A stretch of DNA of 13,025 nucleotides, taken from contig JALVGO010000087.1 of NCBI GenBank assembly GCA_027029065.1, positions 1-13,025 of the forward strand, given 5' to 3'. Numbering within the stretch: position 1 is the first letter of the stretch; each line of letters starts with the position of its first letter. The DNA comes from Sulfurovum sp. (GTDB taxonomy: Bacteria; Campylobacterota; Campylobacteria; Campylobacterales; Sulfurovaceae). The notes under the pieces are model-generated. The model worked only from the letters and a program-made list of their open reading frames with translations, ran no database searches and was not told the DNA's origin. Shown piece after piece: positions 7,256-9,466 of the stretch. The position numbers and the translations under genes were made by a program.

Positions 7256-8701
7256 ATGAGAATCAAAAAAAGAGCATTGACATTTGAAGATGTACTGTTG
7301 GTACCGCAGCACTCCACCGTTTTGCCAAAAGAGGTGAGCGTCAAGACACAGCTTACACGCAGGGTATCTCTCAATATTCCTATTGTCTCCGCAGCGATGG
7401 ATACCGTTACCGAATTTAAAGCGGCCATTGCTATGGCGCGCCTTGGGGGTATCGGTGTTATTCACAAAAACATGGATGTCGCTACGCAGGTACTTCAGGT
7501 GAAGAAGGTTAAGAAGAGCGAGAGCGGTATTATCATCGATCCTATCTTCATCGGACCGGATGCAAGTGTGGCAGAAGCAGATGCACTGATGGGCGAGTAC
7601 CGCATTTCCGGTGTACCGGTTGTCGATGAAGAGAAGACGCTTATTGGTATCATCACCAACCGTGATATGCGTTTTATCACCGATATGTCTCTGCCTGTCA
7701 AAGAGGTAATGACCCCTGCGCCGCTGGTAACAGCGAAGAAGGGCACCACCCTTGAGGAAGCAGCACAGGTACTTCAGAAGCACAAGATCGAAAAGCTGCC
7801 TATCGTTGATGAGCATGGCAAGCTGACAGGGCTTATTACCATCAAAGATATCGAAAAGAAAGAGCAGTATCCCAATGCCAACAAAGATGAGTTCGGACGC
7901 CTCAGAGTTGCTGCAGCCATCGGTGTCGGTCAGCTTGACCGTGCCAGAGCGCTTGTGGAAGCGGGGGTTGATGTACTGGTGCTTGACTCTGCACATGGAC
8001 ACTCTCAGGGTATCATCGATACGGTCAAACTGATCAAAAAAGAGCTCGATGTCGATGTGATTGCAGGAAACATCGCTACAGGTGTAGCGGCAAAAGATCT
8101 CATCGATGCCGGTGCAGACGGTGTCAAAGTGGGTATCGGACCAGGATCTATCTGTACGACACGTATCGTTGCAGGGGTTGGTGTACCGCAGATCTCTGCT
8201 ATTGATGAAGTGGCAGAAGTAGCGAACAAACTGGGTGTACCTGTCATTGCCGATGGTGGTATCAAATACTCCGGTGACGTGGCAAAAGCGCTTGCCGTAG
8301 GTGCAAGCTGTGTGATGCTTGGCTCTGCTCTTGCAGGCACCTACGAAGCACCCGGAGAGATGATCATCTACAACGGACGACAGTTCAAAGAGTACCGCGG
8401 TATGGGAAGTATCGGTGCGATGACCAAGGGAAGTACCGATCGCTACTTCCAGGAAGGAACTGCTGCGGACAAACTGGTTCCCGAAGGGATCGAAGGGCGT
8501 GTTCCATACCGTGGAAAGATCGCCGATGTGATCCACCAGATGATCGGTGGACTGCGCTCTTCTATGGGGTACTGCGGCTCAGAGAGCATCAAAATGTTTT
8601 GGGAGAAAGCGGAATTTGTCGAGATCACCTCTGCCGGACTCAAAGAGAGTCATGTGCATGATGTAACCATCACCAAAGAGTCTCCGAATTATCACGGATA
8701 A
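7256..8701 (+). CDS. guaB: Inosine-5'-monophosphate dehydrogenase
   Basis: IMPDH oxidises IMP to XMP with NAD, the committed step of guanine nucleotide synthesis. The ATG at 7256 is preferred to the upstream in-frame start at 7220 because AAAGGA (7241-7246) sits nine bases before it and the family begins near [12 protein letters not shown]. The 481-aa protein has the catalytic barrel split by a CBS pair (about residues 90-205, with [19 protein letters not shown] and [18 protein letters not shown]), the catalytic loop [18 protein letters not shown] with Cys300, and the mobile flap [17 protein letters not shown] with Arg396-Tyr397. The C terminus is [15 protein letters not shown]. Everything needed for activity is present. 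Its last 55 coding bases recur downstream as an orphan tail at 9404-9466. Confidence 0.98.
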
Positions 8702-8709
8702 CTATCTTC
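8647..8709 (+). repeat. Left copy of a 63-bp direct repeat spanning the guaB 3' end
   Basis: This stretch and 9404-9466 align without gaps at 56 of 63 positions. The left copy covers the last 16 codons and the stop of guaB plus eight bases beyond it. The pair brackets the yefM-yoeB module, like direct repeats left by integration or recombination. Confidence 0.9.
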
Positions 8710-8737
8710 CTCTTTCTACTCCACCTTTTTTTTATCG

Positions 8738-8758
8738 TTCCCACGTTGCACGTGGGAA
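8738..8758. repeat. Palindromic repeat unit TTCCCACGT / ACGTGGGAA
   Basis: A perfect 9-bp stem with a TGC loop, in the context CGTTCCCACG...CGTGGGAATGCATCC. From memory this closely resembles a hairpin (CGTTCCCACGC...GCGTGGGAATGCA) scattered between genes of many unrelated bacteria. It cannot be a normal guaB terminator because the T-run (8726-8733) precedes the stem and none follows it. Confidence 0.65.
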
Positions 8759-8850
8759 TGCATCCTCTAATTAAAATGATAAAACAATTTTTTTTTGGAT
8801 CGGGAGTTGTACTATCTTCAGATTTTCATTCAGCAAATTATAAATAAATA

Positions 8851-8871
8851 TGTACTAATATATGTACATAT
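8851..8871. promoter_or_regulatory. YefM-YoeB operator with TGTACA cores
   Basis: TGTACT (8851-8856) and TGTACA (8863-8868) lie 12 bp apart. The second sits in the perfect 12-bp palindrome ATATGTACATAT (8860-8871), ending at the Shine-Dalgarno of yefM. Operators of E. coli yefM-yoeB are built from palindromes with a TGTACA core, so autorepression of this module by YefM and YefM-YoeB is a direct prediction. A possible -10 (TATAAA, 8839-8844) lies just upstream. Confidence 0.75.
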
Positions 8872-8882
8872 AGGAGTTGCAT

Positions 8883-9137
8883 ATGGAAACAATGAACTTT
8901 TCCCAAACACGACAAAATCTGGCTTCTGCATTTGATGCTGTGGTAGATAATGCGATGCCAATTATGGTTACACGACAGAACAAAGAGCCTGTAGTGATAC
9001 TCTCTATGCGGGATTATCGTGCTATTCAGGAGACCGCCTATCTCATGCAAAGCCAAGCCAATGCCACACGTCTTAATAGAGCTATTGCGCAGCTTGATGC
9101 GGGAGAGGGAAAAACGAAAGAGTTGATAGAGGAATGA
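8883..9137 (+). CDS. yefM: YefM/Phd-family antitoxin
   Basis: An 84-aa antitoxin that neutralises the YoeB ribonuclease and, by the family model, represses its own operon. The N-terminal half (METMNFSQTRQNLASAFDAV, then VDNAMPIMVTRQNKEPVVILSMRDYRAIQETAYLM) is the typical Phd/YefM DNA-binding and dimerisation fold. The C-terminal part (ATRLNRAIAQLDAGEGKTKELIEE) is the flexible toxin-binding tail. I take the ATG at 8883, six bases after AGGAG (8872-8876), instead of the TTG at 8877, which lies on the end of that ribosome-binding site. The stop overlaps the yoeB start (ATGA), ensuring coupled synthesis with the antitoxin first. Together with yoeB it lies between two copies of the guaB tail. Confidence 0.94.
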   Translation: METMNFSQTRQNLASAFDAVVDNAMPIMVTRQNKEPVVILSMRDYRAIQETAYLMQSQANATRLNRAIAQLDAGEGKTKELIEE

Positions 9138-9391
9138 TACTTTCGTTTGCCAATGATGCCTGGGAGGATTATCTCTACTGGCAGCAAAATGACAAGAGGA
9201 TTCTAAAAAAAATAAATCGTCTTATCAAAGAGATACAAAGGGAGCCTTTTGAAGGCATCGGAGAGCCCGAACCGCTTAAATACAACTGGTCAGGATACTG
9301 GTCAAGGCGTATTACCATAGAGCATCGTCTTGTTTATGCAGTGAGAGGAGATAGTCTGCTGATTGCTCAGTGTCGTTATCACTATGCTTAA
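9134..9391 (+). CDS. yoeB: YoeB toxin, ribosome-dependent mRNA endonuclease
   Basis: An 85-aa RelE-superfamily toxin that cleaves mRNA in the ribosomal A site when YefM is degraded. It aligns nearly end to end with E. coli YoeB: DYLYWQQNDKRILKKINRLI, PFEGIGEPEPLK, GYWSRRITIEHRLVYAV and the C-terminal CRYHY. The catalytic residues fall at the same numbers as in E. coli, Glu46, Arg65, His83 and Tyr84, so the toxin is expected to be active. One extra alanine follows Tyr84. The gene overlaps yefM by four bases. Its stop lies only 12 bases before the orphan guaB tail, so the right edge of the acquired segment is very close to the toxin gene. Confidence 0.96.
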   Translation: MILSFANDAWEDYLYWQQNDKRILKKINRLIKEIQREPFEGIGEPEPLKYNWSGYWSRRITIEHRLVYAVRGDSLLIAQCRYHYA

Positions 9392-9403
9392 CACCAAAAA
9401 GCT

Positions 9404-9466
9404 GAGTTATGTGCATGATGTGACGATCACCAAAGAGTCTCCTAACTATCACGGCTAACCATCTTC
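9404..9466 (+). pseudogene. Orphan guaB 3' tail, right copy of the direct repeat
   Basis: In frame this reads [18 protein letters not shown] followed by a stop at 9456-9458. From the conserved [15 protein letters not shown] on, it matches the C terminus of the intact GuaB exactly. The seven base differences in 63 include five within those codons, and all five are synonymous; one more lies just before (His/Tyr codon) and one after the stop. There is no start codon, ribosome-binding site or remaining body of the gene, so it is not translated as IMPDH. It is best read as the displaced end of a second, diverged guaB allele. Confidence 0.88.

Follow-up and report, generated by a model that had tools for sequence, protein, structure and literature searches.

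How chromosomal toxin-antitoxin (TA) modules move without a mobile element is poorly understood, and the question is raised in readable form by a contig of Sulfurovum sp. (JALVGO010000087.1 of assembly GCA_027029065.1; the window herein is its whole analysed stretch of 13,025 nucleotides), in which a yefM-yoeB module stands between two copies of the 3′ end of the core gene guaB. We propose that two alleles of the guaB locus were spliced here by gene exchange between sister Sulfurovum lineages, with the incoming part to the left of the joint, an explanation in which we place somewhat more belief than doubt. The locus would thus be a well-preserved example of a TA module placed behind a core gene without visible mobile-element enzymes, in which two guaB-locus alleles, a gene that is still whole and a scar of 55 bases make the joint readable.

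The repeat itself had been described in a first-pass annotation made from the sequence alone, and our repeat search of the window reproduced its coordinates (8647-8709 and 9404-9466), its identity (56/63, 89%), its lack of gaps and the position of yefM-yoeB inside it. The left copy (tail 1) begins with 55 bases that form the 3′ terminus of an intact guaB, whose TAA stop occupies 8699-8701, and the right copy (tail 2) is an orphan guaB 3′ end that starts 12 bases past the yoeB stop. When random 510-base cores were sampled from guaB loci at least 8 kb long, one of 600 was flanked by a direct repeat with E < 1e-7, which by eye is a dispersed palindromic repeat and no gene tail, and six of 600 by one with E < 1e-3. 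The tails differ in 6 of 18 codons (stop counted), and the five synonymous differences reported earlier are indeed all within the last 15 codons, to which we add one non-synonymous difference, CAT to TAT (H to Y), just 5′ of them. Synonymous changes represent 32 of the 153 possible single changes in the 17 sense codons of the tail, and the binomial chance of at least five in six is 0.002. On this pattern the tails look like the ends of two working genes, rather than like a gene and an orphan that decayed after duplication.

The DNA behind tail 1 identifies it further. The 35 bases past the guaB stop align with the guaB flank of a related locus, L007 (L numbers denote loci and G numbers genomes), with a score of 22 over 25/28 aligned bases, and score 9 and 8 against the flanks of L001 and L003; the maximum among 870 flanks of other open reading frames (ORFs) is 12, and a score of 22 was never reached in 3000 shuffles. 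This makes tail 1 the end of a guaB gene backed by a guaB-type flank, termed alpha herein, and not a duplicated target with cargo behind it.

For tail 2 the evidence comes from related guaB loci, for which the best 80 of 460 guaB relatives from a scan of a genome collection were compared, the closest relatives of the window being Sulfurovum metagenome-assembled genomes. A tail was scored where at least 10 of 17 residues agreed, in downstream DNA of up to 6 kb and often less, where contigs end. All 80 loci contain one tail only. The single-tail guaB of L001 is followed directly by the hairpin that also stands behind tail 2 and by higB-higA, and that of L003 by a nearly identical hairpin and higA, so that an empty right-hand site of the kind sought by the first-pass annotation, with one copy and the tail-2 type of flank, exists in nature; the case that it regarded as refuting, both tails without yefM-yoeB, occurs in none of the 80. 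By blastn, L001 aligns with the window without a break at 9411-10156 (88% over 748 bases) and L003 in blocks at 9409-9556, 9829-10156, 10155-10411 and 10584-10669 (84.5-86%, with 86% over 150 bases from tail 2), and L004 aligns at 92% over 10679-11600, where the query ends. Judged by these alignments, the stretch that begins with the orphan tail and reaches parE resembles one kind of guaB downstream region, which we call the beta type. With two types of guaB flank in the window, two alleles of the guaB locus have been joined, and the differing flanks together with the synonymous pattern disfavor a simple in-place duplication of the tail and support the earlier suggestion that both tails come from functional guaB alleles.

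The guaB gene also appears, from its sequence relationships, to have a history that differs from that of the surrounding chromosome (the names metB, gatA, ileS, hisD and cinA were assigned by eye). At the sites that are informative between L002/L003 and L004, the window is mostly L004-like across ileS and the beginning of gatA, to approximately 6164, with one bin (3665-3914) opposite to its surroundings; the sites are even in 6165-6664 and mostly L002/L003-like from 6665 to the end of guaB. In the ileS and metB trees the window and L004 are sisters (100/100 in each), and forcing the window together with L002 and L003 is rejected (p 3e-8 and 8e-8, respectively), whereas in the guaB tree it is the grouping with L004 that is rejected (p 0.0048) and the window groups with L002 (91/97). 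Site patterns, trees and blastn blocks thus support the recombination previously claimed for this stretch. On the left the recombinant tract ends in a core gene, gatA, as is expected for the homologous side in homology-facilitated illegitimate recombination, and on the right the joint is at approximately 9404.

The least costly account involves a single fragment. It would have carried the 3′ part of gatA, a guaB ending in tail 1 with its own flank behind it, and then yefM-yoeB. Its left end would have been resolved by homologous pairing in gatA/guaB and its right end by an illegitimate join without homology, made 12 bases past yoeB into the resident guaB, 55 bases from the end of that gene. 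The resident would have been a beta-type guaB already backed by the hairpin, higBA and parE modules. In such an event guaB would be kept intact, the displaced copy would survive as a scar made of its last 55 bases, and yefM-yoeB, bringing its own candidate operator, would be able to work and to resist loss at once. We infer homology-facilitated illegitimate recombination, its direction, the uptake of free DNA and the activity of the toxin pair from the arrangement described above.

Several points weigh against this account. The guaB tree places L003 with L004 (81/98) and not with L001 and L002, and a grouping of the window with L001-L003 at guaB is neither in the best tree nor rejected (p 0.26), so that L001-L003 are not one clean donor group. 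The serine codon AGT is present in both tails (8648-8650 and 9405-9407), and the same serine is encoded by TCA in L001, L002, L003 and L007, by AGC in L004 and by AGT in L005; since both tails are unlike the TCA of their supposed sources, they may have had a common recent source. We found no donor locus in which guaB, the 8702-8735 flank and yefM-yoeB occur together, and among the yefM-yoeB homologues retrieved from 175 family genomes, the best with 78% DNA identity, none has guaB within up to 1.5 kb on each side (the DNA matches in 126 of the 175 genomes include many to the guaB tail or a palindrome and are not a count of yefM-yoeB). Finally, the opposite direction fits nearly as well.

In that opposite direction the resident would be guaB with its own flank and yefM-yoeB, and the import would be a foreign guaB from 55 bases before its end, with the hairpin, higBA and parE, joined behind yoeB. 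The L001/L003-like blocks at 9409-10669 and the return of L004-like backbone at 10679 are consistent with such an import, and the L004 alignment runs from guaB through 8763 (82%), so that the inserted part could be 8764-10678. However, guaB is not L004-like, which means that an import reached the end of guaB itself, and the block would need non-homologous ends on both sides. We consider this direction unlikely, although it is the most serious of the alternatives. The first-pass annotation had the old tail left behind as the orphan, and this is the direction we tentatively favor because guaB carries an import signature.

Somewhat less likely still is an insertion with long target duplication, which Nobusato et al. 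reportedly described in 2000 for restriction-modification genes in Helicobacter pylori (PMC3874152, PMC1643837, PMC4978471). Here a TA cassette would have entered the guaB 3′ end with duplication of some 60 target bases, and the copies would have diverged later. There is a precedent in the same bacterial class, as the insertion of some restriction-modification systems duplicates long target stretches of variable length, with 100 bases as the order of magnitude (PMC3874152), a pattern found in H. pylori (PMC1643837). The likeness to the window lies in a selfish two-gene module between direct copies of a piece of the chromosome, on the order of 100 bases, within the Campylobacteria; the AGT codon common to both tails and similar brackets at other toxin genes (see below), several of which look like the H. 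pylori case, also favor it. The window cargo is a type II TA module, unlike restriction-modification genes, and no report of long target duplication for TA modules was found in the openly available literature searched, the two primary papers not included. What argues against this explanation is that the two copies have different guaB-type flanks, unlike a duplication of one target, with tail 1 followed by a genuine guaB flank of the other type where inserted cargo would be expected, and that five of the six codon differences in the window are synonymous. The orphans of two other brackets, in G410 (L203; 4/5 codons) and at a glycosyltransferase gene (L258; 5/7), have changed mostly non-synonymously, as expected for an in-place duplication followed by decay. 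Flanks and synonymous differences speak against a single target as the origin of both window copies, and the AGT codon speaks for it.

Site-specific integration at the guaB stop, with the integrase lost or acting in trans and the tails representing attL and attR, is very improbable. The 3′ end of guaA is used as an island integration site, and the first-pass annotation proposed guaB as an analogous target, naming both recombination and site-specific integration as routes of entry. The mosaic and the flanks support the former. The tail-to-tail layout with a restored gene does resemble att sites, but none of the 80 guaB loci has a second tail, the copies differ at 7/63 positions with 17 as the longest identical run by our own count, and the other brackets, including those around yoeB, are at unrelated genes. 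The reported lack of an integrase was confirmed in the eight window proteins scanned, yefM and yoeB being the only genes in the tail-to-tail segment, and none turned up for 44 selected proteins of the guaB-metB interval at 18 loci, of whose 38 Pfam families 25 were inspected, or in 10 of those 44 proteins examined singly. The single tails at 80/80 loci (within up to 6 kb downstream) and the lack of an integrase among the families inspected lead us to reject guaB as an island integration site, and a decayed or trans-mobilized element is conceivable but not needed. The weakest alternative, an assembly chimera of two strains, is compatible with most relatives being metagenome-assembled, but we give it hardly any credence, reasoning that joining at shared k-mers should yield one hybrid tail and not two and that 9392-9403 is not plainly guaB sequence. 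As for extrachromosomal sources, no phage record matched, and 45 plasmid records did, the 20 listed matching only over the yefM/yoeB part (68-71%) and one record outside that list at 80-90%; both sources were rejected.

The proposed allele splice has parallels in the literature. A process akin to homology-facilitated illegitimate recombination has been proposed for the type VI secretion system clusters of Vibrio cholerae, in which the 3′ end of the displaced gene is shifted back (PMC5361080). In those arrays effector genes are displaced and immunity genes are kept, whereas the window shows a housekeeping gene restored, with only a tail of 55 bases left over. Hotspots without integrases have been tied to recombination at flanking core genes (PMC5635113), and the guaB-metB interval is like them in its changing small cargo, in that no integrase was seen and in its incongruent flanking core gene, but homologous exchange on both sides, as proposed for those hotspots, would not produce a tail scar like that of the window. 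The cargo of this interval varies by species and includes higBA, RelB-like (by eye), ParE, NERD, GIY-YIG and methyltransferase genes. A guaB tail search of the 175 family genomes gave matches in 139 and two matches in three of them; in G136 the second match is at chance level (E 0.95) and in G170 the two are on contig ends that share identical first 127 bases. In G039 an orphan guaB tail (L120:4025-4075) lies on a contig other than that of guaB, directly upstream of an operon that by eye is pst-like. Recognizable orphan guaB tails are rare, and a strongly decayed tail would be missed.

Gene tails bracket other toxin genes as well. We defined a bracket as a direct repeat of 28-400 bases with at least 85% identity and arms 0.3-5 kb apart, one of which is a gene tail and the other is not. 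The yoeB sample comprised 64 stretches, namely the window, L126, L127 and L129, the first 52 of 87 places listed and eight further loci, and those with no yoeB ORF (L163, L197 and L204) or a short flank (L162 and L172) were left out, giving 59 with the window. Four of the 59 are bracketed, or three of 58 if the window is left out, this feature having been the reason for its choice. The three brackets are formed by the tail of an ABC-transporter ATPase gene in G061 (33 bases, 97%), by that of a YcaO gene with its terminator in G513 (51 bases, 88%) and by that of the gene for a 349-residue protein in G410 (83 bases, 95%), where a Fic protein is also inside. In 760 kb of control DNA (38 stretches of 20 kb from 16 genomes) the same rule gave two matches, which by our own arithmetic would bracket approximately 0.3% of 590-base cores drawn at random, equivalent to 0.2 among 58. 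The two control brackets are L248:2841-5159, a dusB-like tail (87%) around a gene for a GGDEF-like protein (names by eye), and L258:13030-14760, a glycosyltransferase tail (121 bases, 92.6%) around an AAA_14/DUF4143 ATPase gene. The excess of brackets is a lead and not a test, since we fixed the rule only once the first cases were known, the control and yoeB loci mostly belong to different genomes, and it was likeness to the module of the window that led to the G061 locus.

Among the 80 guaB loci the rule gave one more bracket, in which copies of the metB tail of G061 (66 bases, 98.5%) enclose an AbiEii toxin gene and a partner gene that matches no Pfam family (L010:3574-5045), so that this genome carries two brackets, one around AbiEii at metB and one around yefM-yoeB between ABC-ATPase tails. 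Each has one differing codon, too few to tell how the orphan has changed. Two processes may give the same picture, with long target duplication at loci such as those of G410 and the glycosyltransferase gene and, in the window, a splice of alleles. A search for empty sites of the G061, G513 and G410 brackets found none, and only the bracket of the window has a demonstrated one. Other candidates were set aside, including L129 (by eye a dispersed repeat), L171 (an intergenic repeat in three copies), L175 (by eye a duplicated piece of an antitoxin gene), L168, L169, L176, L177 and L200 (repeats inside or beside paralogous genes), L167 (the tail of a transposase-like gene itself, not around yoeB) and L212 (a 31-34-base repeat array, not around yoeB). 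L127 is the L126 site with a more decayed orphan and falls below the bracket threshold.

We suggest tentatively, and with rather more reservation than conviction, that small toxin genes have been captured repeatedly, without an integrase or transposase, behind housekeeping genes of the Campylobacterota, each capture being marked by a short copy of a 3′ end, and that the 3′ end is favored since the target gene stays whole. If this is true, orphan tails could be searchable fossils of such captures, and if the scars are general, past captures could be counted from sequence alone and the H. pylori restriction-modification pattern would extend to TA genes. The counts are too low to establish a preference for 3′ ends. 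In a broader sorting of repeats, the control gave two tail-to-intergenic pairs and no gene-start-to-intergenic pair, and the yoeB loci gave 5 and 26, respectively; 23 of the 26 are in one repeat array in L212, two represent a dispersed repeat in L126 and one is in L173. The array in L212 (6231-8185; G046) consists of near-identical repeats near yoeB and is possibly a CRISPR, and L173:4725-7039 (G221, also near yoeB) is a 40-base direct repeat with 100% identity whose arms are at a gene start and in intergenic DNA.

Table 1. Coordinates of features at the guaB locus of the window.
Feature	Positions	Strand	Basis
Approximate left edge of recombined tract, inside gatA	6165..6664		Informative site patterns
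Intact guaB (IMP dehydrogenase); ORF can also be read from TTG 7220	7256..8701	+	ORF; IMPDH Pfam 1.3e-161
Tail 1: guaB 3′ end + 8 bases, attached to gene body	8647..8709	+	Repeat search
Alpha-type guaB downstream flank	8702..8735	+	Score 22 vs L007 guaB flank
Palindrome, dispersed repeat type, 11-pair stem	8736..8760	+	Fold -16.2 kcal/mol, z -4.2
Candidate YefM-YoeB operator with TGTACT and TGTACA cores, spacing 12 bases	8851..8868	+	Core spacing as in PMC7730913
yefM antitoxin	8883..9137	+	PF02604 (PhdYeFM) 7.1e-21
yoeB toxin, full length	9134..9391	+	PF06769 (YoeB_toxin) 2e-41
Tail 2: orphan guaB 3′ end	9404..9466	+	Repeat search
Hairpin after tail 2, beta-type guaB flank	9467..9489	+	Fold -17.2 kcal/mol, z -6.4
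higB-like toxin	9558..9839	+	PF05015 4e-20; 92% protein identity in L001
higA-like antitoxin	9849..10151	+	HTH_3 8.7e-14
Addiction-module antitoxin component (Unstab_antitox)	10195..10398	+	PF09720 1.3e-10; 85% DNA identity to L003
ParE-like toxin	10395..10676	+	PF05016 4.2e-8
Right edge: L004-like backbone resumes at ~10679	10677..10769		blastn

The module itself is of the yefM-yoeB/axe-txe type II kind, in which the genes for a YoeB toxin and a Phd/YefM antitoxin overlap as a pair (Table 1). Both proteins are full length, YoeB matches the solved YoeB chain 2a6q_E (phmmer 1.5e-38, residues 3-84), and the candidate operator cores have the 12-base spacing that is maintained in many yefM-yoeB modules (PMC7730913); the module differs in nothing notable but its setting. 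Tail 2 is followed by the hairpin, higB-higA, the antitoxin/ParE pair, bactofilin and the metB-like gene, so that three TA modules stand in series between guaB and bactofilin, yefM-yoeB being followed by HigBA and by Unstab_antitox with ParE (9558-10676 for the last two).

The palindrome behind the alpha-type flank, GTTCCCACG..CGTGGGAATGC, has similar stretches in several Sulfurovaceae genomes; matches to approximately positions 23-89 of the query (window 8724-8790) are present in several genomes, and by eye related palindromes lie 3′ of guaB in L002, L004 and L009. As one exact pattern it has no match in 297 loci, and Rfam gave no match within 8500-10800. Elsewhere in the window, eight tRNA genes form an array at 1454-2256 with repeated Asp, Val and Lys copies, and the 7-base unit AGGAATT forms a tandem array behind the metB-like gene at 12744-12849.

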